From: Eretmocerus hayati
Taxonomy: Eukaryota > Arthropoda > Insecta > Hymenoptera > Aphelinidae
Reading direction: 5' to 3'
Assembly (NCBI GenBank): GCA_029851415.1
Contig: CM056742.1
Coordinates: 59,422,454 to 59,486,453 of the forward strand
DNA: 64,000 nucleotides
The number at the start of each line of letters is the position of its first letter. Positions within the stretch are counted from its first letter, which is position 1. The position numbers were made by a program, and so were the translations under genes. A model generated the notes under the pieces. The model saw nothing but the letters and a program-made list of their open reading frames with translations, searched no databases and was not told the origin of the DNA. Positions 1,415 through 58,778 of the stretch are shown piece after piece.

Positions 1415-1460
1415 ATTAAGATTGTAGCCTTGGCCATGGCGTTTTTTGTCATCATATATA

Positions 1461-3951
1461 TGGGTCATTCTGGACCGAGGAAAATTCTGAAGAACATTTT
1501 GAAAATCGACGAAATTTAAGAATACCTCCAACATTTTTTCCCGTCAGTACTACTATAATAAGGTTGGGAAAAATTTTTTTTAGATTTTTTTGGGACCCTT
1601 AGCGGGCCCTAGGAATTTTCAAAGTCCCATTTTTGAGCAGTTTTTCGCCTATTTTTCGCTATCTTGGAAAATTCATATCTCGGACCCAAATGCATCTTTT
1701 CCATCCTACCTGGGCGCATTTTTTTCGTTATGACGTACACTTTCAAGAAAAAAATTGACCGGTCCAAAAAATTGATATGTGGTAGGTCCCACGGTTGGAT
1801 CATGAAAGTCCCAAAAATACGACTCTGCACCACCTTTGGAGGCGTATAGGTCAAAATGGAAGCGTCGTCACGAAATTTTGCAGGAGGAAAAACTTGAAGG
1901 TCTTCAAAAAACCTTCGATATCCCTGTTTGAACGTGTCATTATCTCATTTTACGTACGATCTACAGCCGATTTGACTCGGTCATTTCTGTAAAAACGTGA
2001 AACGTCAAGGCCAATTAAAAAAACTTGTTTTTTTATCGACCCCAAACCTATGAGAAAATGTTCTTTCAGGTGTCTATTTGAAGGCCCAACAATAATCTGG
2101 TTGTTCCTTCTAAATCTCGATCTTATACGACCTGTTGAAAACAGTCGGAAATACCGAAAATCGTGTCGAATTCGGGCCTTATCATGACGCTTTGTGGATT
2201 CGGTCTTCCCTTGCTTTCGATTCGTGGACTCTAATTATTCAGCATTTGGCATAAAATATTGTGAAAGATGACACTCAGAGCTGAAAAATGGCGTCTCGTG
2301 CGATCTTTTACGATGGAACAGTCCAAAACTAGAGTAAATTGAGTGAATACAAGATAAATCGAGAAAATCGATTGTGACGCATCTCAAACTTAACGAGCCC
2401 GCGCTCACTAGCCCAAGCGGCCGCTTTGGCACTCCGCGTATGCTCCGCACCGCATGCCATCCTCCGTTTATGCGGAAGTGATGAACAGCGAATGCAGTAT
2501 TGTCAGGTAATATCCAGTATAGACAGAGATAAGGAGGTTCTCTAATTTTCGTTATAGTCTGTAGACTGTACGGGGTTTTGGTTGTTAGTGACCACCACGG
2601 AAAAATTGTATGTGTCAGTCAGCGTCTCGATCAAAAATTTTGGTACACTCGAGAACAAGGTGAACCATGGCGTGAAAATAACTTTCGTTATCTTTACGCC
2701 ATGAAGTGAACTGCAATGGGGTGATGATCAGTGACCCATTTGAGATCTGTCGTCTTCCTCGCACTCATGGGATAACTTATTAGGTGCGAGTGAGATGGGA
2801 GATCTCGAGTGGCCGCTGACCGTCATCCCCCATCGCACTTACCTTGTTCCCGAGTGTACCTTCCCCGTCGGGTTTGCCCCGAACATAGCGGGGGCCTCGT
2901 ATCAGGGCAAACGTATTGTGAAGCATATGAAGTGTAACGCCTTCCCCGCAGGACCCCCGCGAAGTATCTGATCACTTTCATAACCTCCGTAGCGTCTCAG
3001 AGTTAACCTCACTTCTGTGGTTATATGATGGAAATTCCGACAAAGGCATTGAACGTGAACATACTGTATTTTAACATCATTGATCAGCACCACTCACTTT
3101 TCACACAAATCTCAGTCCAGCAAAATTATTTTCTCCATCACACGCTTCAAAGTCAAGTGACTATTTCCCCTCAGTAGAAGTCAACACAGCCTGGATATTA
3201 GTAGCTCTTATGAGGCTTTCCCTGGCCTCCAATGAATTTCCAATGATGAGGCCCGAATTCGACACGATTTTCGGTATTTTCGACTGTTTTCAACAGCTCG
3301 TATAAAATCGGGATTTGAAAGAAACAACCGAATTATTGTTGGGCCTCCGAATAAACGCCTGGAAGAACATTTTCTCATAGGTTTGGGGTCGATAAAAGGA
3401 AAGATTTTTTTTAAATTGGAAACTTCACGCTTCTACAAAAATGACCAACTCAAATCGACTGCAGATCGTACGTAGAATAAGATAATGACAAGTTCAAACA
3501 GGGAAATCGAAAGCTTCTCAAGACCTTCAAGTTTTTTCTCCTGCAAAATTTCGTCACGAGGCTTCCATTTCGACCTATACGCCTCCAAAGGTGGTGCAAA
3601 GTCTTAATTTTGGGCCTTTTTTCATGCAACCGTGGGACCTAACAGATATCAATTTTTTGAACCAATCAATTTTTTTCAAAAGTGTACGTCATAACGAGAA
3701 AAAAGCGCCCAAGTAGGATGAAAAAGATGCGTGTGGGTCCGAGATATGAATTTTCCAAGATAGCGAAAAATAGGCGAAAAACTGCTCAAAAATGGGACTT
3801 TGAAAATCCGTAGAGCCCGCCAAGGGTCCCAAAAAATTCTAATAAAAATTTTTTTCAAATCTATTCCAGTAGTACTAACGGGAAAAAATGTTTGGGGCAT
3901 TTTTAAATTTCGTCGATTTTCAAAATGTTCATCTTGGTCCAGAATGCCCCA
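1461..3951. mobile_element. Long-inverted-repeat (foldback) DNA transposon, copy 1
   Basis: The left end starts TGGGTCATTCTGGACC and the right end is its imperfect reverse complement, GGTCCAGAATGCCCCA. Both are flanked by TA, which fits a TA target duplication. The left arm (about 1461-2195) is the reverse complement of the right arm (about 3247-3951) over some 700 bases. No transposase domain is visible in the loop, so the copy appears non-autonomous. A second copy begins at 61192 and shares the arms and much of the loop, including the 2880-3240 stretch. Relative to copy 2, the right arm here lacks the inner part matching 2195-2640. TA flanks resemble Tc1/mariner insertion, but the superfamily is not established. 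Confidence 0.8.
2666..2702. repeat. Conserved hairpin in the foldback element loop
   Basis: A roughly 16-base stem (CATGGCGTGAAAATAAC pairing with GTTATCTTTACGCCATG) closes a TTTC loop. The same hairpin is in copy 2 at about 62348-62384, where one mismatch is replaced by a pair. Confidence 0.6.
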
Positions 3952-4476
3952 TATCTACAATGTGACCACGATATTTCTGGCAAATAGATACGGCAATTCT
4001 GGGTGTGATTGAAAAAATTCGGAAAATACGTTTCCCGGCTCAAAATTGGATGCTCTTTCGATTGGTCTTTGCAAAATTTCGAAATTCTTTGAGAATTGAT
4101 TTTTTTCAAAAGAAAAATGGCGAAATACATCGCGGACTCACGTATTGACGTTTGCACGAGATCGCCCGTGTTTTTCCACATCAGAATAACATCTTTCCGT
4201 TTCAAGTAGCGTTCGCCAATCGGCCAACGCTACTCGAAACGAAGAGATTGAAAACTGGAGATTTGGATGAATTTTGGATTTTTGGTCGGGTAATGTGACG
4301 GTCAAAACGGCGATTCGAGGTTACGATTTTTGTTGATGAACCGGCTCATCTTCATGATTGAAGCAAGCTTGATGATCGCAGCAAATATGGATTTGAAGAG
4401 AATTTTATTTGCTGTACTCTAACAAGTATTCAGAATATTTGTACTCAGCATCTAAATGGGTCGATGAGATCATAAT
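3952..4476. other. Unassigned DNA between foldback element and gypsy element
   Basis: No convincing gene. It contains a 16-bp-stem hairpin at 4198-4239. The missing 5' end of the downstream retroelement (5' LTR, primer-binding site, gag start) should lie here but is not recognisable. Confidence 0.4.
4198..4239. repeat. Imperfect palindrome with 16-bp stem
   Basis: CGTTTCAAGTAGCGTT pairs with AACGCTACTCGAAACG (one mismatch) around a 10-base centre. Role unknown. Confidence 0.6.
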
Positions 4477-5349
4477 TTGAGGCCGCGTCTCTCGACTTCT
4501 GTAGTGCCGCCAGCAGCATTGTTTCGCGGATTACGATGGGAAATACGAGCAAGAGTCGGGACGCCTAGTAACTTCAAGGACGCACAAGAACTTGCTTTTG
4601 AAATTGAGAGAGAATTTGCATGTAGCGAACCTGATGAAATACAGAAGAAAGACGAAATCAAAACCAGAAATCTGAGGGAAACTAGGAAGATTCACCTAGT
4701 TGAAAATACCAACAATCCACCCGCAATCGTCTGTCAATTTTGTAACAAACCAGGCCACTTTTTGATGAATTGTTTTTCCCTCTTCATGAAGACAAATCCT
4801 AGTTTCGGTGAGAGAAATGGTTTAGACCGCAACGCATCCAGACCCGATTATGCAGACTATAGATCGAGACCACCCAACTCAAATTTCATACCCTCGAGAC
4901 AACCAACGGAATATGGGAGAAACAATACCTACCCACCGCGTACAGATCAGAATACCAACAATTACAACAATAATTCTAACAATAGAATACAGAATGATTA
5001 CGGGAATTACAGGAATTCCAATCCTACATTCGGGCAGTCAAATCAAAAGTATACATGACCTCGAAATTTCAACCCAAATCATTCTCGTCCCACAGAAAAC
5101 ACCGGTGCAATTCCTCGAAATAGCTCTCAGACTAATAACCTAGCTAGAAATACAGATACTCGAATAGAATGTTACTACTGCAAGAAAATCGGGCACTACA
5201 AACGAGACTGTTATAAATTTCAAAATGATGTACGCAACGGTAGAGTGAATCCGGGAAACGCTACTGGTCTCCCTCAAACGGGCGTGAGCCGGGAGACTCA
5301 GCCGAATTCTCGCCCGAGCACTTCGATTGGCCGAGAAACCACCGCATAA
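4477..5349 (+). pseudogene. gag: Gag C-terminal part with two zinc knuckles (Ty3/gypsy)
   Basis: The nucleocapsid end of a retrotransposon Gag, which packages element RNA. Two CX2CX4HX4C knuckles are visible, at about 4732-4773 (starting CQFCNKPGH) and 5170-5211 (starting CYYCKKIGH), separated by an Asn/Arg/Pro-rich linker. A TGA at 5056-5058 interrupts the frame between them; the same frame continues cleanly to TAA at 5347-5349, so this is one nonsense mutation (CGA to TGA fits the Arg-rich context). Matrix and most of the capsid region are missing, so the 5' part is lost. Pol follows in the -1 frame, the usual gag-pol arrangement. Confidence 0.75.
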
Positions 5350-5366: not shown

Positions 5367-8300
5367 TTGAATCAGATAAACGGTGCCCCTACAATCAACT
5401 TGGACATGTTTGAATTCGATGGTCCATTAAAATTCATGTTAGATACGGGTGCCGGACCAAATCTGATTAAGATCAACTGTCTTCCTCAAGAGATGAGGGT
5501 AAATGACAAGAAAGTTATAAATTTGAAGGGAATTACTCCCGAATATATTAGGACGTTAGGGACAATCGAAATGAAGCTCGGCGATCATGTCATCGAATTT
5601 TGTGTAGTGAGCGAAAATTTCCCCATAAAAGAATCGGGAATTTTGGGTAGCGACTTTTTCAGAAAAACCAACGCGAAAATAAATTATCCGGAAAACCATA
5701 TTGAGATTGATGACCAAATCTTTTTCTTCGAGCCTGATTCACGCACGCGGGTGAATCCACCTTCAAACGAAACCACTGAGATCATGACATTTGACAAAGA
5801 GAGTATTGATACATGTCTCAGAACCAATTTAGAAGATATAAGGAATAATATTGAACAAGAAACATTCAATGTTCACCATCATGTCCAGGGACTAGAAATC
5901 GAGTACGGTAACGAAAATCAATCGAGAAATCCTAATCACGAAGATAACGAGATTGAAGAAGAATCATTTACTGAAAATACCGACACTAGTGAGAGCAACG
6001 ACGAAATTTTGATAGAAGCAAAACAAAGGGTGCGTTCAGAACAAGATAAGACAAATGTTATTAGAGGAGAAGAGATACGTGAATCAACGAAAGAATATTC
6101 AGAAATTTTTCCAGAGGAGTCAACGAGTAAAAATGATTTGAAGGATGAAATAGATGACATACGAGAAAATTCATCTATGAAAAACCAAAATTTGATATCC
6201 AGGGAAATCATTAATGAAGAGTTAGAATTCAACAATTTTTCAAGCACTTGCGACCGCTGTTATAGTATATTCGAAGTGAGGAATAATGCGGATTTAATTC
6301 TGTTCGACAGCCTATGCGGTAATTGTGAAAATAATATTTGCGAAGAGTTATACGAAAGGGTTCAACATGAGGCAGTTTTAGGTAATACTGAAGCCGATCT
6401 CGAAGAAAATGAGGGTCTAACCACAAGAGGAATTTTAAATTTCCACGAAGAGAATTCCCCCGAAACATCTATGGAGTATAATAGTGAAATAGATACCCCT
6501 CATATGCAGTCCTCAGAAGAAGAGTGTGCGGAATCGACTGCTGTTGGCCAGTCAATACAAGGAAATCCTTGGGATCTCAATTGTGGTTATGAAAAATGTA
6601 ACGGCCATGAATTAGGCATTCGGAGGAACTTATTACAACAGAACACGACTTCTATCACCAATACGGATGGGATGTCTAGAGCTGAAAGAGTTATTGCCCT
6701 AATCAGGCTAGATCACCTCAACGCAGAAGGAAAACAAATAGCAATCAAATGGGTTTCTCGCTACGCAGACGTTTTCCACTTACCAGGTGAAAAACTTACC
6801 TCCACGAACGTTATTAAACACAGAATCCCCACTACCGATGACATACCTGTACATGCTCGACAGTATAGGCTACCACCTGTATTCAGGGAAGAAATAAATA
6901 GACAAGTGAAAGAACTCCTAGAGAATGATATTATCGTTCCATCTGAATCAAACTACAGTAATCCAGTGTGGGTTGTACCGAAAAAGGAAGACAGTAAAGG
7001 CAACAAACGATATAGGATCAGGCGCAAAATACTTCTCTGTATTCGATTTAGCTTCAGGATTCCATCAAATAGAAGTAGACGAAGCGAATCAAGCAAAAAC
7101 AGCTTTCGCAATTCCAGGGGGAAAATCCGCCTTTAAGAAAATGCCTTTTGGCTTGATCTCAGCGCCCTCTACGTTCCAGAAAGCTGTAGATACGATCCTA
7201 ATTGGCCTACAATCAAACGTACTGATGGCCTACATCGACGACGTCATCTTATTTTCAAAAACTTTGGAGGAGCACGAAGAAAAATATTTTTTGTTCATGG
7301 AAAGGTGTCGAAAATATAATTTAAAACTACAAGCAGACAAGGTGGAGCTTCTGAAACGTAAAGTGACGTATTTGGGACATTTAATCAGCGAAGAAGGTAT
7401 CAGACCAGATCCGAAAAAGGTCGAAGCAGTAAAAAAATTTCCGGTTCCGCGAAACGTGAAAAATATCCGTCAATTCTTAGGTCTCGCAGGTTATTATCGA
7501 CGATTCATTGAAGGATTCTCTAAAATAGCTAGACCCTTGAGTTACCTCTTGAAAAAAGACATTTCATTCATATGGGGTGAAGAAGAACAGAATGCTTTCG
7601 AAACCTTGAGAGATAAACTCTGCGAAGAACCGGTGTTAGCTTATGCTGATTTTTCTAAACATTTTTGGGTCACGGTCGATGCCTGTCGAATTTCGATTGG
7701 AGGTATATTATCACAAGGCGAATTTGGGAAAGATCGACCGATTGCATACACTTCTCGGGTTCTAAATGACGCAGAAAGACGCTATTCTACTTATGAACAA
7801 GAAGGTTTAGCTATGGTATACGCAGTGAGACAATTCCGACATTATCTGATCGGCAGGAAGTTCACCATTGTAACAGATCACAAGCCCCTCGTGTGGTTTT
7901 TGAATTCTAAGGACCCTAACTCCAGAATAACGCGTTGGAGAATAAAGATGAGCGAGTTCCAGTACAAAATTCTTTATAAAAAGGGAGCAACAAATACCAA
8001 CGCAGATGCCCTCTCTCGCAACCCTGTTGATTGTACGGAAAATTCTATTTTTCCCATCGAGACGAGAACTCGAACCGATGCTCTCAACCGTCCGAATTAC
8101 AACGAAGAACGAGTGAAGAAGACTCAAACGAATAAGGAAAGGCCTCACGAACAACAGACAGTCAACGAAGACCCTCCGGAAAATGAGTTACCAACAAATG
8201 ACACCATACCGGACTCAGAATCAACTACGCCAAACAATGAGATACCCCCGGATACGGAAGCCATTGGAATTGAAAACCTTGAGGGAGATGTAGGCCAGCC

Positions 8301-9867
8301 GAGTGCGACAACTGAACAAGGAAACCCCATGACTGAAATGCAAACGAGACACTCCCGGATCATAGGGAAAATTTTTGTAGAATGCAGAGAAAAATTGTTC
8401 ATGAGAAAGGACAATTACTTATATTTTGTAAACACCTCAGGAGAACCATGCGATACAGGAGCCAGGGAGTTACAAGAGCGAAACGAACTACCAAGGTTAT
8501 TAGACCTTAGTATTGGAGAGATAAAAACCGTCCGTCACAACAATAAGTTACACTTGGTTCTACCAATCAGAGGAGAAGAAAGACAGAGTATGAAAATTAT
8601 AGACGACAATCTCACAATGGGATTTAGAGATCTTAAGAGACTCGTCGGACAAGAACAATTAAAAACGATCAGCGTAGCGAAATCAAACTTTATAGAAAAT
8701 ATACCTTGGACAGAAGTCATGATCAAGCTCCGAAATTTACTACGCGGTTTAAAAATTAAAATAATCATTTGTGTGGGCCTAGTAAAATACTCAAAAATTG
8801 AAGAGCGACATGAAATAATTGAAGCGGCCCATTCATCCGCGAATGGAGGGCATAAGGGAGTTAACAAAACGTACAAACGATTGAGACATAATTATAATTG
8901 GGAAAATATGAAGATCGACGTCCAACAATTTATTCAACGTTGTTTGTCCTGCCAATTAAAAAAATTGGTTAGAGTAAAAACAAAAAATCCTATGGTTATA
9001 ACCGATACTCCTACTGTTGCTTTCCAAAAAATAGCAATGGACATTGTTGGTCCTTTCCCGCGGACTAAAAATGGCCACGATAATATCCTAACCATACAAT
9101 GTTTATAAACAAAATACTGCCTAGCTATAGCACTCCCAGACGCTACAGCTAAATCAGTAGCAGATGCCTTAATAAAAAGATTCATCTGTACTTTCGGAGC
9201 TCCAGTAGCTATACTTACCGATCAAGGAACAAATTTCCTCAGCAACCTGATGAAAAGAGTTGCAAAAAAATTCAAAATTCAGCAGTACCGTACCTCGAGT
9301 TATCACCCCCAGTCGAACGGATCACTCGAGCGATCGCATCACGTGCTCGGTGAATACCTGAAAGCATTTATCAGCAAAGAAGAAGAGTGGGACAGTTGGT
9401 TGGATTTAGCAACTTGGAGCTATAATATTTCGTGGCACGAAGGGACAAAGTTCACACCTTTCGAACTCGTGTTCGGACGATCACCCAGAGTTCCATCTAA
9501 TGAGCCTTTAGAACCGGAAGATGAACTTCCGACTTATGAAAATTATCTCATCGACTTGAATACCAAAATCCATGAAATACAAGGTCTTGCTAGAGACCGA
9601 TTAATTGAATCAAAGCTTCGTACCAAGTTTTATTTTGATAAAAAAATCTTTCCAAGGGTATTCAAAATAGGCGACTACGTTTGGTTATTAAGGGGAGGTA
9701 AAATACACAAATTTGCCGACCAATACGAAGGAACTTACTTGATCATTAGTATGCTTGAAAAGGATAATGCAAAAATCCAACTCGTTAGAGATAGGAACAA
9801 AACTAAAGTAGTACACGTGAATAGACTTAGAATATCTTACATTGCAGAACCTACCGATTGCAATTAA
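5367..9867 (+). pseudogene. pol: Ty3/gypsy Pol: protease, reverse transcriptase, RNase H, integrase
   Basis: Polyprotein for proviral DNA synthesis and integration. The aspartic protease carries DTGAG about 28 residues in. A roughly 300-residue acidic linker follows, containing a CX2CX18CX2C cluster from about 6249. Reverse transcriptase starts near 6690 and has YIDD at 7231-7242. RNase H (VDACR, TDHKP, NADALSR) ends near 8025. Integrase has an HHCC zinc region near 8840-8955 and core residues in MDIVGPF, TDQGTNF and SLERSHH. At about 7016-7022 some 30 residues around the first RT motif are deleted, and the frame shifts with the loss. TAA at 9106-9108 interrupts integrase; the same frame then continues to 9867. 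Clearly non-functional as it stands. Confidence 0.9.
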
Positions 9868-10224
9868 TATCATCGCATTGTATTACAGGTCAAGGAAAAC
9901 AGAAAAAGAAAAGGGGAAATACAAGGGATTCTCAATTGGAGAATCTAACATACACCAACGGAACTACAAAGGGCGAATATACTTTTGGATACAACCTCTA
10001 TCTCAATTTAGAATCTCAAATCAATTCACCTTGACATATAACTGACGAGACTTCACCCACATAAAACACAATGCTCATACCTCCGAATAATATTCGAATA
10101 AGGCGTTAAGGGAAAGGGGAAGAACTTAGAAACCCACGCGCAATCAATCGAACATAGGAACAAGTTTAGAGAAAAATCTTCGTTTTACAGGTAGAAAAGG
10201 AGAGAACCAAATAAATTCGCAAAG
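9868..10224 (+). other. Pol to accessory-gene spacer with possible splice acceptor
   Basis: No gene. CTTCGTTTTACAG ending at about 10191 resembles a splice acceptor, 34 bases before the ankyrin ATG. A spliced subgenomic RNA, as used for env in retroviruses and errantiviruses, would fit, but this is inference. Confidence 0.35.
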
Positions 10225-11073
10225 ATGGACATCCAGAGCGTTTTAAATCGACTCAACAACGATGCGATAAACAGCTATAATATATTTCACCAGAATTTGT
10301 CAAACGGAGTAGACGACCCTAGCCAGCTATATTCTATATTATTATTAGAACCTTATATGAGAGTAGCATTAATGGTTCTATGCGTACGTAACGGTACTAC
10401 GAATTCATTGCGTTTCATTTTAGAACATTCAACCGACATAGGAATAGATAGAGTTAGAGAAATCATTAGAGAATGCATCACCCACTTGAGATTGGATTAT
10501 TTGCGCATGGTGATGAACCTTATTGATTGGAGGCGAACCTATGCATGGGATGATATAGAATTAGAATTTTGTTGTCAATCACGCGCAATTCCCGAACTTA
10601 CACAATATCTAATGGACCCGATTACGCGCAATATGTTCAAATCTAGTATAGATAGAGACCATATTATGATATTTACACTACTACTTTTAAAAGGAGCCGA
10701 CGTGAACTAAGATTTCGGAAGCGGTCTTACACCTCTGCGTTAATCCATATGCCGGGGACGCCTGGAAATGGCGCAACTCCTACTCAAAAACGGGGCTCAC
10801 GCCAATGAAAATTCCGAACGCGATCCACTCGTACATGAAGCACTCAAACTTTCAAACCCAAGGATGGTAGATCTCCTTATCGAATTCGGTAGTGATGCTA
10901 CTTTGATGGATACAGAAGATAGGAACGTATTCCACCGCCTCGCTGAAATGTCTAATATAGGGGATGTCACTAGAACCGCCCTGTTCAAAGCATTACTGAA
11001 AGGCAAACCCGACCTCAATAAACGCAACAGCAAAGGGATAGCTCCCCTAATCCATGCGATAGAATGCGAGTGA
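10225..11073 (+). pseudogene. Ankyrin-repeat protein, interrupted by two stop codons
   Basis: From ATG 10225 one frame gives 282 codons ending with TGA at 11071-11073, interrupted by TAA at 10708-10710 and 10741-10743. Across the stops the ankyrin consensus is plain: GADVN, GLTPL, then EMAQLLLKNGA and MVDLLIEFGSDA in successive repeats from about 10680 to 11000. The first 150 residues are more divergent and may hold degenerate repeats. Ankyrin proteins are protein-binding scaffolds; several insect-virus versions (vankyrins) act as I-kappa-B mimics, but nothing here proves that role. It lies directly after pol and abuts the envelope fragment, overlapping it by a few bases in another frame. Both TAA codons could come from single substitutions. 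Confidence 0.7.
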
Positions 11074-11866
11074 ATACCTCCTGCTCAAACCAATTGATGA
11101 AATAGATTATCGACGCTGTAATATCCAAATAGACTCAAACACAAACCCATACTTCAAGCGAATAGGACCAAACTCGAATTGGATATATTCCTTGTTCTCC
11201 GCAGACAACTTCATTATAAAATGCAAGGATACCCCAGCCCCACAGATCGTAACACTCAGTGGAACGGGAATATTGAATTTGAAACAAAATTGTTATGCTG
11301 AATCGAGAGGATATGTACTATCAAAGGGTCCCACGTTACCAACAGACCGACTCGACATCCTAATACCAGAAATTAACTTAAACATCGAAAACTTGATCTC
11401 AACAAATACACAAAATCTGTTGAGAGAGAATTTTGAACACGAACAAAACCCATCATTGATTTCACATTCACTATGGGATTTAGAAAATCAAGTAAAAAGG
11501 AATTCAAAATATCCTCTAAACAACCAATTAATCCAGAGTATAATTACGACGATTCACATAATTGTCACAACAATCGTATTCCTGATCCTCTGTGGAATAA
11601 TTGTGATTCTTCGCACGACACATGCGAAAAGAAAAAACGATAGTCAACATAAGCCAGAAAAATTACCATGCCAATCTGTAACTCTTTCACCTCAAAATAT
11701 ACTTTCCAACAAGGTACAATGCGAAAACAAGGAAGGTTTCATTTACGCCTCATCAAATGGTCACTGTAAATGTTCGATCAAAAGTGACAGTTCGAGTAAA
11801 ATTGAAAATAGAATGACAGAAAGCGCTCTAAACCCAATCAAGGGATTCATTGAAACTGAAATATGA
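11063..11866 (+). pseudogene. env: Envelope glycoprotein C-terminal fragment with transmembrane segment
   Basis: An open frame from 11063 (after a TAG at 11060-11062) without an obvious ATG, ending at 11866. The ectodomain part has several Cys and the stretch LSGTGILNL, which recalls the region before the anchor in envelope proteins of errantivirus/BEL-type elements. A hydrophobic span at about 11542-11610 is followed by basic residues, a typical stop-transfer anchor, then a roughly 80-residue cytoplasmic tail. Surface subunit, furin site and fusion peptide are not visible upstream; the ankyrin gene occupies that place. Either the envelope is truncated or it was rearranged by the ankyrin acquisition. 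Family-level identity is inferred. Confidence 0.5.
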
Positions 11867-11950
11867 AATATTACCATCACTTTATCCAAAAGAAAGAAGA
11901 ACAGAATACCCATGCTACATATGAATTTACAGAAGAAACGAGCAGATAAA

Positions 11951-12277
11951 ATGGAGATTAGCAAAACAGTATTCATCTTAGTCCTATTCGGCCGATGGAA
12001 ACCATCAGAAGCGCATCTAGTTGGGTACGATTGCGGCGAGGAATTAACAAACCTAACAACAATATCCTTAGTCAGAGTTGACGATTGCGACATCAAACCA
12101 CCTGAACTGAATATCTCATCTGTCCATGTCAATGTACTGCAACTAAACGAATTCGGATCAACTATAACAGATACTGACTCCCAGGACACCATACCCGAAT
12201 CACCTCCTGCGATTTCAGCGCCAGAATACGAGGAATTAGCACAATTCTACATAGAGGAGTTTGACTTATCGAACTAA
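11951..12277 (+). CDS. Short secreted protein resembling the N-terminus of a viral-type glycoprotein
   Basis: I chose the ATG at 11951 because it opens directly on a hydrophobic signal peptide (residues about 4-20, KTVFILVLF core); an in-frame ATG at 11912 would add basic residues. After the signal come GYDC, an N-linked site (NLTT), VDDCDI and an LQLNE segment, a pattern reminiscent of N-terminal ectodomains of chuvirus-like or gypsy-type glycoproteins. The frame ends in a Pro/Glu/Asp-rich tail with no membrane anchor. It lies 84 bases after the anchor-bearing envelope fragment, so the two pieces are in reverse order for one envelope. It may be a rearranged fragment or an independent small secreted protein. 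Confidence 0.4.
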   Translation: MEISKTVFILVLFGRWKPSEAHLVGYDCGEELTNLTTISLVRVDDCDIKPPELNISSVHVNVLQLNEFGSTITDTDSQDTIPESPPAISAPEYEELAQFYIEEFDLSN

Positions 12278-12312
12278 CCATTACTCAACCGGAATGTCGT
12301 CTTATTATAGAA

Positions 12313-12933
12313 ATGGATCAATCCAGCTCAACCATGAACTGCCGGAACTTGTCAGACGCAATCAACAGAATTACCGCCGATACTGCAGGCAAAGGGATGT
12401 CTACTTACGAAAATAGATTACGGACGTACAAGAATTGGCCACGGAGCATGCACCAATCAAAGGAAGATCTGGCTGCGGCGGGTTTCTTCTATACAAATCG
12501 AGGAGACATCGTGTCATGTTTCCATTGCGGCGTTACTCTAAAGAAATGGGAATCTACTGATAACGCATGGATCGAACATATCCGTTGGTTCCCCAACTGC
12601 AACTTCGTAATCACAACAAAGGGAGAGACATTCGTCAAGGCCACCATGGAAAGATTGGAATCGTCGAACACCTCAGAGAGAGAGGTAATCACAAAACCCC
12701 TTCCGCCCGAACCGACCACAGCGAACACTCCGAACTCCTTAACGTGTAAAATCTGTTTCGACGATAAAATAGGAATAGCGTTATTACCATGTCGTCATTG
12801 CGTCGCGTGCAGCAGATGTTCTATACAATTGAAAAATTGTAGCATATGCCGAAGTAAAATCACCCATTATTTAAGAATTTCAATTCCAATCGAGCTGAGC
12901 TCCAACGCGATGTCTGAGCCAATAGAGGAGTGA
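12313..12933 (+). CDS. Inhibitor of apoptosis protein (one BIR, C-terminal RING)
   Basis: Intact 206-residue frame. A BIR domain spans about residues 28-97, with CFHC, WESTDNAW, EH and FPNC giving the CX2C...H...C zinc ligands. A RING finger spans about residues 143-182 (CKIC, LPCRHCVAC, CSICR), normally an E3 ubiquitin-ligase module. BIR-RING proteins bind caspases or IAP antagonists and promote their ubiquitylation, blocking cell death in the cytosol. One-BIR IAPs of this size occur in insect large DNA viruses and as host genes. The usual GH of the RING is RH here. It is the only complete recognisable gene in the element, downstream of the envelope pieces and upstream of the polypurine tract. 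TCTTATTATAG just before the ATG is a possible splice acceptor. Confidence 0.85.
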   Translation: MDQSSSTMNCRNLSDAINRITADTAGKGMSTYENRLRTYKNWPRSMHQSKEDLAAAGFFYTNRGDIVSCFHCGVTLKKWESTDNAWIEHIRWFPNCNFVITTKGETFVKATMERLESSNTSEREVITKPLPPEPTTANTPNSLTCKICFDDKIGIALLPCRHCVACSRCSIQLKNCSICRSKITHYLRISIPIELSSNAMSEPIEE

Positions 12934-13009
12934 TCCCCTCCGTTCATTCCAACGTTTGCTAGTATAATATCATACCCCAATATTGCATCCTATTACAATA
13001 AGTTTATTT

Positions 13010-13600
13010 AGTTATTCCAAAATTTTAGAAACGTCCTTCGACAACAAAAATAATGAGTAATTCAATATTTATCATTATGCAATTGGAATTTAGGCCAACA
13101 TCATTATTGATAAGACTGTTAGTTTATTACAAAGATCTCGAGAATGTCTATTGACAACAAAATAATGAGTAATTCAATATTTATCATTATGCAATCGAAA
13201 TTTAGCCCAATATCATCATTGATAAGACTGTTAGTTTATTACAGAGATCTCGAAAATGTCTATTGACAACAAAAATAATAAGTAATTCAATATTTATCAT
13301 TATGCAATCGAAATTTAGGCAAATATCATCATTGATAAGACTGTTAGTTTATTACAAAGATCTCGAAAATGTCTATTGACAACAAGAAATGAATGAGGAA
13401 ACTCAATATTTATTAATACGTAATCAAAATTTAGCTCATTTATTAGCTCAATTATATTCTACCTCAATATCATCATCAATAAGACTGTTTAGTTTACAAG
13501 AATATCAAATCTACAAGAGTTGTTGACATTCTACCTCAATAGCATCGTTGATAAGACTGCTATTTTATTACAAAATGAAGAATTTCAATGTTAACCGAAT
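13010..13600 (+). repeat. AT-rich tandem repeats of about 112 bp
   Basis: TAAGACTGTTAGTTTATTAC recurs at 13111, 13223 and 13336 (periods 112 and 113), with degenerate copies near 13480 and 13552. Each unit also carries AATGTCTATTGACAACAA and ATTATGCAAT. The array lies between the IAP stop and the polypurine tract, so it would form a 3' untranslated region. Confidence 0.8.
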
Positions 13601-13722
13601 ATTTACCTTCATATTATGATCTACCTCTATTTATCACCATTGATGAAACCATCTAATTATTGAGGAAGAAATAAGAATAACTTTTTTTAAACCTATTCAC
13701 ATTAATTAATAAGGAAACAATA

Positions 13723-13941
13723 ATGCGAAAGAAAGAATTTCACTCAAATTACAACACATTCAAATATGTACTTTTGAATTTTACCATATGTAACCATGGA
13801 ATTTTGTTATCTCGGCGATATGTGAATATTCGTAAAAGCATTCAAAAGGATAGAGTATTTCGAAAACTATATCTGATCACTGACGCTAGAAGGAATAAGA
13901 ATTCATCGATCTTGAATCATACAGTCTGGAACTTTGCGTAA
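13723..13941 (+). CDS. Small basic open frame, doubtful
   Basis: A 72-residue ATG frame rich in Lys, Arg and Asn, just before the hairpin and polypurine tract. No recognisable domain, signal peptide or membrane segment. In AT-rich sequence a frame of this length can occur by chance; it is listed only because of its position inside the element. Confidence 0.15.
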   Translation: MRKKEFHSNYNTFKYVLLNFTICNHGILLSRRYVNIRKSIQKDRVFRKLYLITDARRNKNSSILNHTVWNFA

Positions 13942-13950
13942 CATTGTAAC

Positions 13951-13983
13951 GGACATTCGGGGCTATTGTAACCCCTAATGTCC
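13951..13983 (+). repeat. Hairpin directly upstream of the polypurine tract
   Basis: GGACATT-C-GGGG pairs with CCCC-T-AATGTCC around a 9-base loop (11 pairs, one mismatch). It ends five bases before the polypurine tract. Confidence 0.6.
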
Positions 13984-13988
13984 GGACT

Positions 13989-14000
13989 TAAGGGGGGAGG
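13989..14000 (+). promoter_or_regulatory. Polypurine tract (plus-strand primer site)
   Basis: TTAAGGGGGGAGG immediately precedes TGTAACGG. This is the standard arrangement of a polypurine tract against a 3' LTR and fixes the LTR start at 14001. Confidence 0.75.
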
Positions 14001-14018
14001 TGTAACGGCTGCGCCTTG

Positions 14019-14410
14019 TGTAATGTGTGGGATGGATGGATGTATGAATGTTATGCTTGTTTTGAATGTTTTATGTGTACGATGTGTGAATGTACTTGTG
14101 TAATGTGTGGAACGAATGGATGTATGAATGTGATGCTTGTTTTGAATGTTTGATGTGTATGATGTGTGAATGTGATCATGTAGTGTGCGTATATTAAATA
14201 GAGTATGCGTGTTGAATGAATGTAATAATTGAATGCTAATATTGTAGCATGTGTATTGAATGTATGCGTGTTGAATAAATGTAATGTTTGAATGTTAATA
14301 TTGTAGTGTGTGTATTGAATGTATGTTAGTGCATGCGTGTTGAATAAATGTAATGTTGAATGTTAATATTGTAGTGTGTGTATTGAATATATACTAATAC
14401 ATACTAATAA
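14019..14410 (+). repeat. TGAATGT-rich tandem repeats in U3
   Basis: An approximately 80-bp unit (TGTGTAATGTGTGG...TGAATGTACTTG) occurs twice at 14019-14180. Three shorter units built on GTATTGAATGTATGCGTGTTG follow to about 14410. Position suggests U3 enhancer-type repeats. Confidence 0.6.
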
Positions 14411-14920
14411 TCGTAGTGTGTACTGAATGAATGTTATCATGTAGCGTATGTAACGAGTGAATGTACTGTATGAATGTACCATATTTTTACACCAATATTG
14501 TGTATGTTTCGAGTTGAGATGGGAATGCGGAGATGAATGTAATGCATAGTTTGAACGGTCGAAGCAAAACAAAAGTGAGAGCGAGTAGAGGAAAAACACA
14601 ACAGAAGGACGAGGGACCGAAGAGTAATAAAAGAATAGTAACGGACTAGGCAAGGGACGGAGAAAACATCGCGGGTACGCGGTCAAGATGAACCGCGCTG
14701 AGCCCAAATTCTTCGCAATGAGGTGTTACTTGCCAAGCATCTAGACAGTTATGTCAGTCTTGGCTCGGCCTATGTCTAGTATACGCACCTGCTGCGGATC
14801 GACTTTTTGACCCCCCGGAGTCTAAGTTATTGATTTTTCTCTACAGAAAAACATCTTAAATTCTTCAAATCGTCGAATAGAAACCCTTCCACTACCGAAT
14901 TCCGAACATTCCCAAATTCG

Positions 14921-14930
14921 GTATAAAAGG
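14921..14930 (+). promoter_or_regulatory. TATA box of the LTR promoter
   Basis: GTATAAAAGG, with the initiator-like CTCAGTTTT about 28 bases downstream. This is a strong core-promoter match. Confidence 0.7.
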
Positions 14931-15720
14931 GGACTGCAGAAGGGCCCATCAACTCAGTTTTTCTCCAGTTTTCCTCCGTGTCGGTCCTCTCGGCAGATAA
15001 CTCTTCGGTCTAAAGTCAACTTCTCGCTGACCTTACGATCAAGTGTTGTACGTGTGTGTTATTGTGACAAGTTGATCGTGTGAAAATTGAACGTTGTGTT
15101 AAGTAAATATCAAGACCAAGATCTCGATCAAGAAACAAGACCAATATTTGTGGTTACGTGTGATCGTGTGATTTGAACGTTGTGTGAAGCAAATATCAAA
15201 ACCAATATCTCGATCAAGGATCAAGATCGATACTGAATTTAAGTGATTTTGAATCAATATCTATATTATTCCGAATCCGGAACTAAGTGTTCAGTGAACA
15301 ACCACTAAGAATATCGAGACCGATATCTCGGTCAGGAATCCAAAAGCGTCATTCAGTGATCAGAACTTTGAAAGTAGCAGAGATCAATTGATCGAGACAT
15401 CGCCGAGAAATATTCAACCTACCGATATTGTCAGCATCAAAGTATAGAGTTGGGATAAATCAGATCAGGAATAATTGAAGCAGTTTCTTCACTTCGTATT
15501 CATTATCATCATCTACAAAACCGAACGAGGTGAGTAATCAACGTTTGAATAATTTTTAGGATATATCCAACTCAGAGAAGATACTCATTACTATACCGAC
15601 TTGGAGGAAGATAGAATATCATACACGAAACCATTCAACTCATTAACAACGTTCAGACCGGGCTTGCAACTCACCGACAAGAATCATATGCTCGTTGTAC
15701 CAATATTCCCGTCTCATCGC

Positions 15721-15781
15721 CCATAACTCATAACCCATAACCCGTAACCCATAACCCATAACCCGTAACCCATAACCCATG
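15721..15781 (+). repeat. 8-bp minisatellite (CATAACCC / CGTAACCC)
   Basis: About seven units of YRTAACCC in a row. It resembles telomeric CCCTAA only superficially. Confidence 0.75.
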
Positions 15782-16029
15782 TGGATCCGAAAATCGCCAA
15801 ATTTGTGATTTAATAAGAATTCGTTCAGGGACTCGTTTCGATAACTTTCAATTGATTAATTAATCGCAACTCGTGTGATACATTCTAACCTTCGTGAACA
15901 AACCGATCTCTCCACTCCCTTACTCCCGGATGATATCAGCTCCGCTATTGCTTCAAAAACTAGGGAATATTAGGAAATAAGTTATGGAATCGTTGTGTAT
16001 TTTTGAATGAAAGAGTTTGATTGTTGATT

Positions 16030-16530
16030 TAGTATTATTATCAAGGGAACGCTACTATATACCGTAATTCGGTTGAACAGATAGCCCTTGTTAACTATTA
16101 ATTATTCATTATTTAGTATTATTATCAAGGGAACGCTACTATATACCGTCATTCGGTTGAACAGATAGCCCTTGTTAACTATTAATTATTCATTATTTAG
16201 TATTATTATCAAGGGAACGCTACTATATACCGTCATTCGGTTGAACAGATAGCCCTTGTTAACTATTAATTATTCATTATTTAGTAATATTATCAAGGGA
16301 ACGCTACTATATACCGTAATTCGGTTGAACAGATAGCCCTTGTTAACTATTAATTATTCATTAATTAGTATTATTATCAGGGGAACGCTACTATATACCG
16401 TAATTCGGTTGAACAGATAGCCCTTGTTAACTATTAACTATTCATTAATTATAGTATTTATTAACTAGTTATATTACCAAGGGAATGCTACTATATACCG
16501 GAATCCGGTTGAACAGATAGCCTTTGTTAA
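16030..16530 (+). repeat. Six tandem 84-bp repeats, each able to fold into a hairpin
   Basis: TCAAGGGAACGCTACTATA begins at 16041, 16125, 16209, 16293 and 16377 (exact 84-base period), with a sixth divergent copy near 16476. Within each unit CAAGG pairs with CCTTG, GCTA with TAGC and ACCG with CGGT. In the last copy the inner stem gains a pair (ACCGG/CCGGT). It lies between the LTR region and a LINE fragment. Confidence 0.85.
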
Positions 16531-16574
16531 TCATAAGGGATATGAGTGAGTGAGTGTTTGTGAAAGAATAATCA

Positions 16575-16980
16575 ACGATTCTGTAACACATCCTCGAAAG
16601 ATGATGTTTTAGAAACTCGTAAAATCGAGTCCAAGAATAGCAAAAATGTTGCCCTCAAAAAACGTTCCGGTGATCCTCATAGAGATACATTTTCTTCTGT
16701 AATCAATGTCAAATTAAAGTGTGTACGTGACCATGTACTCATCTTAAAACGTAGTTTTGGCAAATTAACAGTTGATCATGTGGTACCAGGTATGAAATTG
16801 GAGACTAGAATAGGAATTTACGAAATGTTACCTCAATTGATCAATGAATTGCGATTGAAAGCAAAAGAACGTGGTTATGATCATGTATGGATTCGTAATA
16901 GTACCTCATTTGTGAGAAAGAAAGGTGGATCTATTGAAATTCCTATTTTAACAGATTCGGATATTGAGAAAATATCGTGA
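16575..16980 (+). pseudogene. LINE ORF1 protein, C-terminal part
   Basis: An open frame without a convincing start reads to TGA at 16978-16980. Residues in the last 90 positions (RIGIYEMLPQLINELRLKAKERG, given here only as landmarks RIGIYEMLP and RLKAKERG, then DIEKIS at the end) match the ORF1 at 27552-28298, which ends DITKIS. ORF1 proteins of CR1/L2-like LINEs bind element RNA. The N-terminal half is missing. Confidence 0.55.
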
Positions 16981-17740: not shown

Positions 17741-18212
17741 TATTCATATTATGTATTTGACTATAGATATGCTCGTTGCCATACCGTCCGCTGTGACCAC
17801 GGCATAATAAATTCATTGATCAATCAATCAATCTCTCTCTCTGTTACCTTGAAAATGTCCTTTCCTTCGCTCGGCTCTCGCTGGAACAATAACTGTATGA
17901 TTAGACTATGAACTTTATTACTTGGACCAGGAGAGAGGCAAGACGGATATGAATTGCTTATCCATCACAGTTCCTCGAATCATATATTGCACAGCTAAGC
18001 AGAGTCATTTTTCGAGGAATTTTCAGCTGCAGGATCTAAACTATCTGATAATCCAGATGAGTCGGATTAATTTTCATCCAAAATGCGACGCATTAGTGGA
18101 GGAAATCATTTTATGGGATAACTCGGAATTCCTCCATTCAATCACTGACATCCATCACCCTCGGCTAAAGCAAGAGTCTCAATCAATCCTCAGTCATGGA
18201 TTTTCTTTTCAG

Positions 18213-18613
18213 GCAAACTCTTCCACATCGACTTTGGGTATATTTTAGGTCGGGATCCAAAACCCCTCCCTCCACCGATGAAATTGAGTCGAGAAATGGT
18301 CGAAGCTATGGGTGGCGTTGGATCTGAGCATTATCATGAATTCAAGAAGCAATGTTATACAGCCTTCCTTCATCTCCGACGTCACGGGAACTTGATCTTG
18401 AATCTGTTCTCATTGATGGTGGATGCTACTATTCCTGATATAGCGTTAGAGCCTGATAAAGCTGTAAAGAAGATCCAGGACAAACTATGCTTCAACATGA
18501 GTGATGAAGAGGCCGTTCACTATGTCCAAAACCTTTTGGATCTTTCCGTGACAGCGGTGATGGCAGCACTAGTCGAGCAGTTCCATAAGTTTGCTCAGTA
18601 CTGGCGAAAGTAG
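18213..18613 (+). CDS. PIK3C3: Last exon of phosphatidylinositol 3-kinase catalytic subunit type 3 (Vps34)
   Basis: Vps34 makes PI3P on endosomes and autophagosomes in complexes with Vps15 and Beclin 1. A polypyrimidine tract and AG (TTTTCTTTTCAG, ending 18212) precede an open frame of 132 residues plus a split Gly codon. The residues are those of the kinase activation loop ([18 protein letters not shown]), the conserved FLHLRR and LFSLMVDA blocks, and the C-terminal helix ending exactly HKFAQYWRK. No internal stop or frameshift is present, so it looks functional. The preceding catalytic-loop exon (expected residues around GDRHLDN) is not visible in the 17.8-18.2 kb interval, so the upstream intron is long and probably full of the elements to the left. 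Confidence 0.93.
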
Positions 18614-29838: not shown

Positions 29839-32800
29839 TCACTGATTTTCTCCTTTAGGAGCATATAGTCTGATGAGTTTGTGAACAGGACGTTGTAGTT
29901 CAGTGGTGGAGGTACGCAGAGTGGCGACTCTGGTGCGTTTGTCCCGCCCTGGGTGTACTTTTATCACACGAGCCAAGGGCCAACGAGCAGCTGGAGTTCG
30001 CTCGTCCTTGATGAAGACTAGGTCGCCCACTTTGAGGTTCGATGAAGGCAACGCCCACTTCTGGCGTTTCTGCAGATTTTGGAGTTATTCAGTAGACCAG
30101 CGTTTCCAGAAGTTTTGTTGGAGCTGCTGGACTGATAGCCAACGTTCAAGTGGTGGTATGCGCTTGCTTGTGAGATCTGATTCTGGAACAATGTATGAAT
30201 CCAATTGGATCAGAAAGTGCGCAGGTGTAAGGGGCCTGGCATCCAAAGGTTCGTCGGTCAGAGGAGTGATGGGACGAGAATTTAGGATGGCTTCTATTTG
30301 GCATAGAAGTGTTGATAATTCTTCGTATGTGAGCTCGTTTTCGCCCACAACTCGGTTGAGATGGTGTTTGACTGACTTCACTGCAGCTTCCCAAATACCT
30401 CCGAAGTGAGGTGAAGCCGGGGGGATGAAATGCCAGTTAGTCGAGAGTTCAGCCAGGGACGAGACTATCTCATTGAGTGTCTGGGAGGACTCGGAGAAAA
30501 GCTCTCTCAGCTCACGAGCAGCACCATGGAAATTCAAGGCTTGATCCGAGTAGACATCTGAGCAATGACCCCTACGTGAAGTCATTCTGATGAAGGCAGC
30601 TCTGAAACCGGAGGACGTGTAGTCCGAGACGGCTTCAAGGTGCATGGCACGTGTACATAGACAGACAAAGACGGCGATATAGCCTTTGTAAGATTTGTGA
30701 CCTCGTCCAGGAGCCGTGCGGAGCAACAACGGGCCCGCGTAATCGACTCCAACTTTGGAGCATGGTCGTGAAACCTGAACACGACAAGGTGGCAGCTGGC
30801 CCATAAGTTGGTAGGCAGGTGACGCTTGGTACTTAATGCAGACTTTGCATTGATGAATAGATCGTTTGACGGCTTGACGACCTTTGATGATCCAAAACTC
30901 TTGTCGAAGTGTGGCAAGAGTTACTTGGGTGCCACCGTGCAATGTTATGGCATGGAACCGCCTGACTACCGTTTCGGTAGAGGGATGATCGAATGGAAGT
31001 ATTATTGAATGTTTCTGACTTGTAGAGAGAGCTGAATTCTCCAATCTCCCGCCCACTCGCAGGATTCCATGGACAACGATTGGCGAGAGTTTAAGCAACT
31101 CATGGCCTTTTGGTAGGAACGAACCAGCTGAGATGAGGTTCATTCCTCTTGTATAGACAGAACGTTGGATGAAAGGGACCCATGCGAACTTTGCACGCTC
31201 TTTCTCTTCATAAGTGAGGAAGTTAGTACCACAGTTTGATACTAGAGCCCAAGGCTGATTTTGTATCAAAATAGGCTGCTCATCAGGAACAAATAGGTCG
31301 GGATTGATTTTTGCCAAGTAGCGAAAAATATAGGCAGTGACGTTGATCAGTCTTAAGTAAGACGAAACGTCACTGAGCAAGTGGTTGAACGGGGTCAAAA
31401 TACCGCCAGATACAGGAGGGCTATTTACAATATTTACAGAGGGCACAAAATTGAGCAAAGGCTGCGAATCTTTTGGTTTCTTGGCGAGTGGTTCTGGATG
31501 GGGCCATTCAGAGACAGGCAAGCTTAACCAATCTGGCCCATTCCACCATAGAGATAGGTTAACTAGTTCATCAGGAAAACAACCACGGCTGCCTAAGTCA
31601 GCAGGGTTCTGCTTCGACTCTACATATTTCCACTTTACATCAGTGAGAAGGGTCATAATTTTGGCACAACGGTTTGCAACGAATGCCGGCCATCGAGATG
31701 GGTGATCATCCAACCAGTACAGCACATTCATATTGTCTGACCAAACATGGTAACTGACATTTGGTATTAACAAGGAGGATTTAACTTTGTTCATGAGCTC
31801 AGCGAACAAAAACGCAGCGCAGAGCTCCCATCTAGCATTTTTAGGCTTATCGAGCGGAGCAACTTGAGTTTTAGCCTGGAGAAGTGTGACTTGATTTTCG
31901 TCACGATAGCTAATTTTCAGGTACACAACAGCACAAATTGCCAGGTTGGAAGCATCGGCGAAGCCAAGTAGCTCACAAGAACATGATCCACTCACGAATC
32001 CAGTCCATCTAGGGATTTCCAGTTTGGATATTTCAGGTAGACTGCTATACCATCGAGACCATCGGTTAGAGTCTTGATCAGAAAGTTCTTGATCCCATCC
32101 ATACTTTTCTCGCCAGAGATCCTGCATGATCAATTTAGAGGTTATGATAATAGGGGCAAGCCATCCTAGAGGGTCGAAAACACTAGCTATTCGGGACAAG
32201 ACGGACCTTTTCGTCCAAGAAATCGGGTTATCTACATCAATCGGTTTGAACTTGAACACATCTTCACTGGGTAGCAATGAAGACCGAGGATTGAGAACAC
32301 AGAATCATTTTCAGGATTCAGAAGACTGGGACAATCAGATGAGGGAGTTTTGGCTAACATATCTGCGGGCAAATGAGCGAGTAATCGAGAATCGTTCGAT
32401 ATCCATTTTCGCAAGTTAAATGTACCCGAATTGCAGACATCAATCAATTGCTGCTGCTTAACTTTCGCAGCTTCGATGGTATGATCTCCTGAAACCACAT
32501 CATCCATGTAGGTTTCATCCTTGAGGGCAAGCGAACCTATTGGAAAAGAGTCATGTTCATCTTCAGCAAGCTGTACTCTGACACGGTTCGCTTGAAAGGG
32601 ACTTGGACTAAGACCATAGGTAATGGTATTCAATAGAACGATCGAAACTGGTTTGGAAGGGTCTTTACGCCATAAGATCGATTGTAGTTTACGATCATCT
32701 TCGTGAATCCAGCCTTGTCGGAACATTTTCTCAATATCAGCTGTAAAAGCAAACTTATGACAGCGCCTATTCAAAAGTAAGGTAGGCAAATCAGGCAGAA

Positions 32801-34697: not shown

Positions 34698-35676
34698 GAT
34701 CAGAGTGAGGTTAGGAATTAGGTACGAATTGACTCAAAAGAATTATGAAGTCAACCTTAACAGTACAATGAGGTACATGAACTGATCAGTCACAAGAAAA
34801 AGTGACGAGAACAGCGTCAAAACTAGGTACAGGGATTGCTATATATGCACATTGGAACAGCCAAGCGTAACCGCACATGAGCACTTTCTATATCTGAAAA
34901 GGTACGTTTCTATGGTACATGCGCAATGTGCGATGTATAAGGGCGCTGGCATTGGCATGTGTAAGATGAAAAAAAGAACGATCTTACTGGTTTGATGACT
35001 GCGCGATGCATACGGTCGGCGACGATGCGCTTGAAAGCTTGCGCACACTTGTAGGCGGACGCCACACACTGTTGCAAATGTCAGCTGGTCGTACCGATGC
35101 ATCAACTAGGCACCTCAGCGCCAGGACCCACTTACGGCAGCTGCGAGGACTACTGACGGCTTGGCGATGATCGGTCGGTAAGGTAGACTGCGACTATCCA
35201 GCGCGCTCACTGTTCTTGGAGATGACCTCCAGGTATGCCCACGTTGAGTGCCGGACTGATGACATCAGCTGGGGTACCCGTAGCCGTTCGTTGACGATGG
35301 TTGAAGAAGAAGCGCACTCGCGCTTGCCTCGTGCCAATATACTGGCTCAGAGTGATTAATTTCACAGAGCACGTGCACTGGTACGATAGCCGGTCGATGC
35401 AAATTTTTAGCTCACCCGCTAAGATGCAGGATCGCAGCGGGACACGCGTGCATCGCCGGTTTTGCTACACTTCACTTAGTGAACACAGTTCTAGTGCACT
35501 CGCGTATATTCGAGTGCGAAACACCTCGAGTTTAGCTCGACCGCATGCATAACTAGACGATGCTGTAGCGGGGCTAAAATGGCGGCGTGACCGAAACTTC
35601 GGAGCACGCACGCTTCACACGCGATCACTGCACTTTCCAGTTTTCCACTGCACTGATGCGGCTCGAGGGACCAAAA
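34698..35676 (-). other. 5' leader of the BEL/Pao element
   Basis: About 980 bases between 5' LTR and Gag ATG. On the minus strand the sequence after the LTR is TTTTGGTCCCTCGAGCC; TGG at the start fits a tRNA primer-binding site, tRNA not identified. GC-richer than its surroundings. Confidence 0.55.
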
Positions 35677-55839: not shown

Positions 55840-56331
55840 GCTTTTTGGTGCTAGGTGGGGTGGATTCCCGCGAGCAACCTCTTTCATTTTTAGAGAAAAA
55901 AAAGAGGATTTCTTTTTCCTCTCAGCTCACCACAAAAAAAAAATTTTTTTCCCGCTTTGGGAAATTGTCGAGAGTGTTGCGAGAGAAAAAAAAAAGTGAC
56001 AAGTTAATACAAGAGCTCGAGCCAAGCGGAAGAAACATCAGCCAGCGCCGACCAAAACTGAAGCGGACTTCATACCCAGCCCACCCGCCCGCCAGCAACT
56101 CATCAGGGTCACCGAGTGCTGTTTATCATCGACATATCCAGGTTCCGGTAATCCAGCCAGCCGGTCACTGCACGGAGCCTCATGCTGCTCATCGCAACTA
56201 CATTCATCCTGGCCTGCTGTAGCTGCAAATCAGCGTAAATACAAAGACTCTATTACGATCTCTCTCTCTGCTATATAACAAAGTTATAGTCGTGTTCAGT
56301 CTCAAAGCTTCAATCCCATTTCGTTTCTAAA
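55840..56331 (+). other. Leader with probable primer-binding site
   Basis: GCTTTTTGGTGCTAGGTGGG follows the LTR directly; the TGGTGC start is usual for insect gypsy-type primer-binding sites. About 490 bases precede the Gag ATG. Confidence 0.6.
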
Positions 56332-58680: not shown

Positions 58681-58778
58681 AACCAACAGGCCCAAAACCA
58701 GCATTTAAACTAATATCTCGTCCGTCGCAGACCCCGTGCGCCGGGCGCATCGATGTCGCAATAAAGAATGCGCCACTG

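Follow-up and report, generated by a model that had tools for sequence, protein, structure and literature searches.

Why would ankyrin and inhibitor of apoptosis (IAP) genes lie between pol and the 3' long terminal repeat (LTR) of a gypsy-type element? The question is raised by a 64-kb stretch of the Eretmocerus hayati genome (contig CM056742.1), referred to here as the window. Beyond the integrase, which ends at 9867, the pol strand was found to carry an ankyrin frame, one fragment with a membrane anchor, another with a signal peptide, and a BIR-RING gene, followed by a polypurine tract and an LTR that starts with TGTAACGG at 14001, all as a preliminary description had reported. That description proposed that the ankyrin and IAP genes are cargo of an errantivirus-like element, and the gypsy pol, the Baculo_F envelope and the other copies of the element agree with it. 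We consider it highly probable that this block represents the accessory part of an endogenous retrovirus, a giant Ty3/gypsy element of errantivirus-like type, whose accessory genes would be spliced from an LTR leader.

The genome (692,130,109 bp in 17 contigs, four of them 122-205 Mb) was searched for other copies. The window IAP protein gave 96 matches. The best 23 of these were nearly whole with at least 75% identity, and 18 of the 23 had no stop. Fifty-five rows were grouped by identity into family A (at least 70%, 28 rows), family B (61%, 5 rows) and family C (42-52%, 22 rows); the remaining 41 were left out, being further parts of copies that were split, short fragments, weak matches or probable host genes. 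A search with the start of a fusion glycoprotein gave at least 150 rows, 42 of which were compared with the IAP places. This start was located no more than 6 kb 5' of the IAP gene on the same strand at 35 of the 55 places (A, 21/28; B, 4/5; C, 10/22). The spacing between the two was 3245-3301 nt in 14 of the 21 family A places and 401 nt in the window.

Stretches of the same genome (numbered with L) were read piecewise, and the full gene order was assembled from different copies. The seven stretches L002-L008 all contained the glycoprotein end, ORFx (186 amino acids) and ORFz (145 amino acids) 5' of the IAP gene, with some frames broken. Farther 5', L009 and L010 contained the ankyrin gene ANK3, an F-type envelope (634 amino acids in L009) and the glycoprotein, which was frame-broken in both. 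Farther 5' again, L011 and L012 contained integrase, ANK1 and ANK2. The order in the better-kept copies is LTR-gag-pol-ANK1-ANK2-ANK3-Baculo_F envelope-Monjiviricetes (chuvirus-type) glycoprotein-ORFx-ORFz-IAP-polypurine tract-LTR. Within pol the order is protease, reverse transcriptase (RT), RNase H and integrase, as in Ty3/gypsy elements. The cargo of these copies was much larger than first described, with three ankyrin genes, two envelopes, ORFx and ORFz.

The ends of two such copies and of a third were read. The copy at C4:32035788-32060926 is 25,139 bp long and has both LTR ends with a perfect 4-bp target-site duplication (GTGA). The copy at C1:135118289-135141537 is 23,249 bp long and also has both LTR ends with a perfect 4-bp duplication (TTAC). 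The IAP and glycoprotein places from the genome searches fall inside both spans. The same genes in the same order, which the preliminary description had suggested looking for in other copies, were found within LTR ends bearing target-site duplications. At C1:118 Mb, the LTR pair of another copy was 98.2% identical over 2091 nt. Paired TG..CA LTRs and a polypurine tract were present in other copies; the window has the 3' LTR alone.

The accessory block was also found in related families. Family B (L020-L022, L036 and L038) contained an open protease-RT-integrase frame of 1588 codons. Its identity to family A was 88% for ANK1 (last part only), 76% for ANK2, 63% for ANK3, 53% for the envelope, 68-97% by part for the glycoprotein, 70% for ORFx, 27-35% for ORFz and 61% for IAP. 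For family C (L023-L029, L035, L037, L039 and L040), identity to A was 28% for the F-type envelope, 61-76% for the glycoprotein middle, 33-49% for ORFx and, in long matches, 46-51% for IAP. Three ankyrin genes were present in L039, and a search of L023-L029 for ORFz gave nothing at E <= 1e-3. Apart from ORFz in C, the accessory genes had the same order in all three families. Of five stretches holding more distant glycoproteins, L041 had integrase followed by the glycoprotein, with no F-type envelope found alongside, and L043 and L044 had integrase, a Baculo_F envelope and the glycoprotein. The stretches of these three elements gave no ANK, ORFx, ORFz or IAP matches, and in L042 and L045 what precedes the glycoprotein was not clearly visible. 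The integrase-glycoprotein and integrase-envelope-glycoprotein families suggest a stepwise build-up of the accessory block. As a separate observation, L043 and L044 place double envelopes more widely among gypsy families than the IAP-bearing ones.

Judged by its alignment with these copies, the copy in the window is a relic of a Ty3/gypsy family, truncated at its 5' end and with internal deletions; the preliminary description had not foreseen this. All its parts lie on the + strand. Similarity to other copies begins near 4.5 kb, 3' of a foldback element, and a 5' LTR was sought in the 64-kb window and not found. The first recognizable part is the 3' part of gag (4477..5058) with a zinc-knuckle-like motif, a weak match below the Pfam cut-off; the element is truncated 5' of it. 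This piece was 72% identical to gag of family B and 48% to that of family C. It is followed by a frame from protease to the RT start (5367..7136; RVP, E 1.6e-4), broken relative to the next frame, then by RT, RNase H and the zinc-binding part of integrase (6925..9108) and by the C-terminal part of integrase (9250..9867). The ankyrin frame (10225..11067) corresponds to the first ~281 codons of ANK1 (Ank_2, E 4e-8), with in-frame stops at 10708 and 10741 and the remainder deleted. The next frame (11070..11866) is what remains of the Baculo_F-type envelope, its last 264 codons including the membrane anchor, and is 97% identical to L009 2905-3696. The start of the Monjiviricetes-type fusion glycoprotein, with signal peptide and N-terminus, lies at 11951..12166 (PF24664, E 2.8e-10, positions 5-69) and is fused through a deletion to the ORFz tail (12166..12277). 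The IAP gene (12313..12933) is open, encodes 206 amino acids with one BIR (E 7e-24) and one RING (E 2e-11), and is the sole accessory frame still whole. Tandem repeats with a unit of ~112 nt (13029..13385) extend from IAP toward the polypurine tract (13989..14000). The 3' LTR, TGTAACGG..CTGTAACA, occupies 14001..16588.

Up to 11067 the window was colinear with L011/L012; the colinear copies were then L009/L010 over 11070-12166 and L008/L005 from 12166 onward. Since colinearity with other copies spans window 9600-11067, 11070-12166 and 12166-14100, both breaks inside the block are deletions and not LTRs. The first deletion (~4.9 kb, summed from L012 and L009) removed the rest of ANK1, ANK2, ANK3 and the envelope start. 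The second (~2.9 kb, from L009 and L008) removed most of the glycoprotein, ORFx and most of ORFz. The genes appear as fragments in the window because of these two deletions. A single short secreted gene at 11912-12277 was also considered and ruled out, as this frame is the deletion fusion of the glycoprotein start and the ORFz tail. Two stop-free runs in 9868-14000, 267 and 222 codons long, exceeded the maximum of 212 in 2000 base shuffles. For gag and pol the AT skew was 0.16-0.22; the pieces of the envelope and the glycoprotein had 0.23 and 0.20, IAP had 0.18, and the first ankyrin piece was lower (0.07). Elsewhere the mean skew was 0.00 (sd 0.14, 463 windows of 600 nt).

How might so many separate frames be expressed? 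A pyrimidine tract and YAG precede the starts of ANK2, ANK3, the F-type envelope, the glycoprotein, ORFx and ORFz in both families A and B. By a home-made acceptor-like score, the eight family A accessory starts exceeded 815 other ATGs (Mann-Whitney p 2.3e-5). Relative to background, ANK3, the envelope, ORFz and ANK1 ranked in the top 3%, the glycoprotein at 6%, IAP at 10%, ORFx at 11% and ANK2 at 34%. The two acceptors suggested in the preliminary description fared differently: the site 5' of ANK1 (10190..10191) is strong and conserved in L011 and L012, whereas the one near 12310, before IAP, is weak. From the start of one 5' LTR to gag, the sole donor-pattern match was AACGAG/GTGAGT, located in the LTR (L034, reverse strand 3945). 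The same donor is present in the window LTR at 15529/15530, ~0.6 kb 3' of a TATA box at 14922. Each accessory gene is likely spliced from the shared LTR leader. Alternatively, the genes may belong to the element and be expressed from a few polycistronic or internally initiated RNAs, with the acceptor-like sites partly due to chance. The ordinary site of ANK2 and the weak ones of ORFx and IAP, together with evidence that is confined to sequence, speak for this; the tract and YAG at six gene starts in two families and the low p value for the eight A starts speak against it, and we regard it as unlikely, though with an appreciable share of the probability.

The two envelope genes were assigned by profile matches. 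The whole envelope frame of L009 matched PF12259 (Baculo_F, E 3.6e-28) over positions 9-594 of 609, and L036 (E 3.8e-29) and L035 (E 7.2e-23) matched it as well; an F-type envelope 3' of pol is as in errantiviruses. The L009 glycoprotein matched PF24664 (Monjiviricetes_fusion) over 3-71 and 66-571 of 653 (E 1.3e-174 for 66-571). L008 holds the glycoprotein end (572-638), and with L009 it covers nearly the whole profile. By these matches the second glycoprotein is class III-type, of the Monjiviricetes/chuvirus fusion kind. The envelope piece and the glycoprotein start had no match in the protein database. In the PDB, the envelope piece and the glycoprotein profile had none, and the glycoprotein start had two insignificant ones (E 0.45 and 0.96). 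An AlphaFold model of the envelope piece (pLDDT 53) was too poor to use and gave no Foldseek match at E <= 0.001. Among viral contigs, no confirmed relative (0/6) was found with IAP, the ANK1 piece, the envelope piece, the glycoprotein start, the pol piece or a four-row glycoprotein alignment.

Only one of the two envelopes may work in entry, the other being a relic or having a different task. L041, with a glycoprotein and no F-type envelope found alongside, fits this idea, as does the far lower conservation of the envelope (53% and 28%) than of the glycoprotein between families. However, the Baculo_F frames are full-length or nearly so in A and B and long in C, and the envelope ratio of nonsynonymous to synonymous change (dN/dS) within A was 0.23 (3 pairs only). 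We find a single working envelope rather doubtful and favor the reading in which both serve entry.

Profiles also defined the other accessory proteins. Ank_2 matched ANK1 (E 2.9e-26), ANK2 (E 3.9e-51) and ANK3 (E 1.6e-31). ANK2 and ANK3 are 34-39% identical and probably arose by tandem duplication. ORFx and ORFz are two small cysteine-rich genes. ORFx had no Pfam match above the cut-off, and its AlphaFold model (pLDDT 43) was too poor to use. We also observed that all eight aligned ORFx rows from three families (including L008, L020, L021, L024-L026 and L028) keep an acidic stretch, D-I-E-[IV], and are rich in cysteines; we take the acidic stretch to resemble a SUMO-binding motif, and ORFx might bind SUMO. 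A FLYWCH-like label for ORFz was dropped because Pfam showed no FLYWCH match at E <= 1.

The window IAP matched three distant IAPs in the protein database and BIR relatives in the PDB. The zinc ligands of BIR (CCHC, four) and RING (C3HC4, eight) were invariant in 6/6 aligned IAPs (window, two B and three C). The protein is likely a caspase-blocking ubiquitin ligase, as predicted from these domains. In the IAP tree, the element BIRs did not form one clade (two changes), a pattern compatible with one origin as well as with several, and they were placed toward the BIR2 domains of IAP genes that probably belong to the host.

Selection within family A was estimated as median NG86 dN/dS from pairs with dS above 0.03 and at least 40 codons; the pairs are not independent. 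The median was 0.26 for IAP (105 pairs, range 0.07-0.71), 0.26 for ORFx (54 pairs), 0.32 for ORFz (85 pairs), and 0.31 (15 pairs) and 0.37 (38 pairs) for the glycoprotein middle and end. Few pairs were available for ANK1 (0.26, 4 pairs), ANK2 (0.29, 2 pairs) and RT-integrase (0.17, 1 pair). These ratios indicate purifying selection on the accessory genes with enough pairs. Between families, silent sites were near saturation, and no accessory part was better conserved from A to B than the glycoprotein middle (dN/dS ~0.02). We also noted that this middle part was 96-97% identical at the protein level between L020-L022 and family A despite near-saturated dS; the figure for the glycoprotein end was 68%.

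Several points weigh against the accessory-region reading. It is based on comparison of sequences, and all three families come from one genome. The glycoprotein start was unpaired at 20 of the 55 IAP places, being lost or outside the rows used. The target-site duplication of the C1:118 Mb copy was unreadable because its 3' LTR is cut short, and for the third copy read at its ends, the presumed 5'-end stretch held no LTR, the true 5' end having been missed. The sequence after one 5' LTR yielded no primer-binding site, no tRNA match being sought there. The acceptor score was our own, and three of the eight sites were ordinary or weak by it. The dN/dS values of the ankyrin genes and the envelope come from two to four pairs, that of ANK3 (0.38, 4 pairs) mixes ANK2/ANK3 cross-matches, as those of ANK1 and ANK2 may too, and that of the glycoprotein start was 0.73 (2 pairs). 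In L013, L014 and L015 of family A, one BIR zinc ligand was lost in each. It is very improbable that the block instead stems from host DNA with no relation to the element, from a nested insertion or from a DNA virus that integrated beside a gypsy element. Large DNA viruses of insects do typically carry ankyrin and IAP genes, but the same order recurs in many dispersed copies of three families, LTR ends with target-site duplications enclose the block and rule out adjacent host DNA or a separate insertion, and no unit without LTR bounds was seen, virus core genes not being sought.

Other features of the window were also recorded. The LTR contains 84-nt tandem repeats (15936-16530), whose number seems to vary from copy to copy and also, within one copy, from one LTR to the other. 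The foldback-type element (1455-3957) has long inverted ends (733-nt alignment, 86%) and a related copy at 61188-64000. A second, diverged gypsy element at 56290-61211, with an RT 41% identical to that of the first, ends where the foldback-like copy starts. Two long overlapping frames of 739 and 833 codons on the minus strand (30088-34733) resemble a retroelement polyprotein by eye. The frame at 18149-18610 presumably resembles the C-terminus of class III PI3-kinase (Vps34).

In the proposed mechanism, the LTR promoter would give rise to genomic RNA, and splicing would link the LTR donor to an acceptor immediately 5' of every accessory start, giving each gene its own mRNA. The two glycoproteins would serve entry, perhaps into different cells. 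The BIR-RING protein would act as a ubiquitin ligase blocking caspase-driven death of the infected cell, and the ankyrin proteins and ORFx may act on host signalling or protein turnover. The cargo may in this way modulate immunity and cell death. With more reserve, we lean toward a broader reading: a lineage of complex retroviruses of 23-25 kb that has, in tandem, two whole fusion glycoproteins differing in structural class, and with them a host-control set like that of DNA viruses (three ankyrins, a BIR-RING IAP and two cysteine-rich regulators). Every gene would be spliced from one common LTR leader to an acceptor of its own, and the whole would represent convergence on the gene kit of large DNA viruses. 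If true, gypsy-type retroviruses can accumulate genes for entry and host control, each a separate open reading frame (ORF) under selection, and grow in this way to 23-25 kb. An element whose two envelopes differ in fusion class would raise the question of separate target cell types. With an anti-death gene in a germline-transmitted element, it could be tested whether endogenous retroviruses act against the death of cells where they move. The integrase-glycoprotein and integrase-envelope-glycoprotein families in the same genome would be possible build-up intermediates.

Among known systems, the element resembles errantiviruses, which are gypsy elements of insects with an F-type envelope of the baculovirus kind, in its gag-pol-F-type envelope order, TG..CA LTRs and 4-bp duplication. 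Errantiviruses express env from a spliced mRNA and are about 7-8 kb long, whereas the element described here is 23-25 kb long and has, beyond the genes they share, an IAP and three ankyrin genes, ORFx and ORFz, and an additional envelope that belongs to another class. Baculoviruses carry a BIR-RING IAP, and polydnavirus ankyrin proteins (vankyrins) are thought to act on NF-kB signalling. Unlike those genes, the ones found here are carried by a retroelement, and the element BIRs lie on the BIR2 side of probable host IAPs.

The planarian element Burro (GYPSM1; Jurka 2007, Grohme 2018, as reported in PMC6431247) is described, in the part of that account consulted, as a giant gypsy element with ankyrin, BIR and gypsy-Env homology. 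BIR and ankyrin in a giant gypsy element are common to both; Burro is further credited there with other apoptosis and ubiquitin motifs. It differs in having one ORF1 polyprotein of nearly 5000 amino acids, with env between gag and pol (PMC6431247). Here, separate frames lie 3' of pol and include a BIR-RING IAP and two envelope genes, with no single polyprotein. Anakin elements and mosquito BEL/Pao and gypsy elements carry chuvirus or type III glycoproteins (PMC12440569, PMC13172572) and share with the present families an LTR element with a class III chuvirus-type fusion glycoprotein; the portions of these accounts consulted make no mention of adjoining F-type envelope, ankyrin or IAP genes. 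LTR elements of bdelloid rotifers have captured an ORF3 encoding env, GDSL, DEDDy, coiled-coil or transmembrane proteins (PMC5408684). These are likewise extra genes 3' of pol, with no IAP or ankyrin named in the part of that source consulted. The preliminary description had taken the arrangement to be undescribed. The combination itself is partly known from Burro. In a partial literature survey, we noticed no gypsy element with two envelopes together with ankyrin and IAP ORFs. As far as that survey reached, what is new is the tandem of envelope genes of different classes and the separate ORFs with an IAP and three ankyrins, in a layout kept across families.

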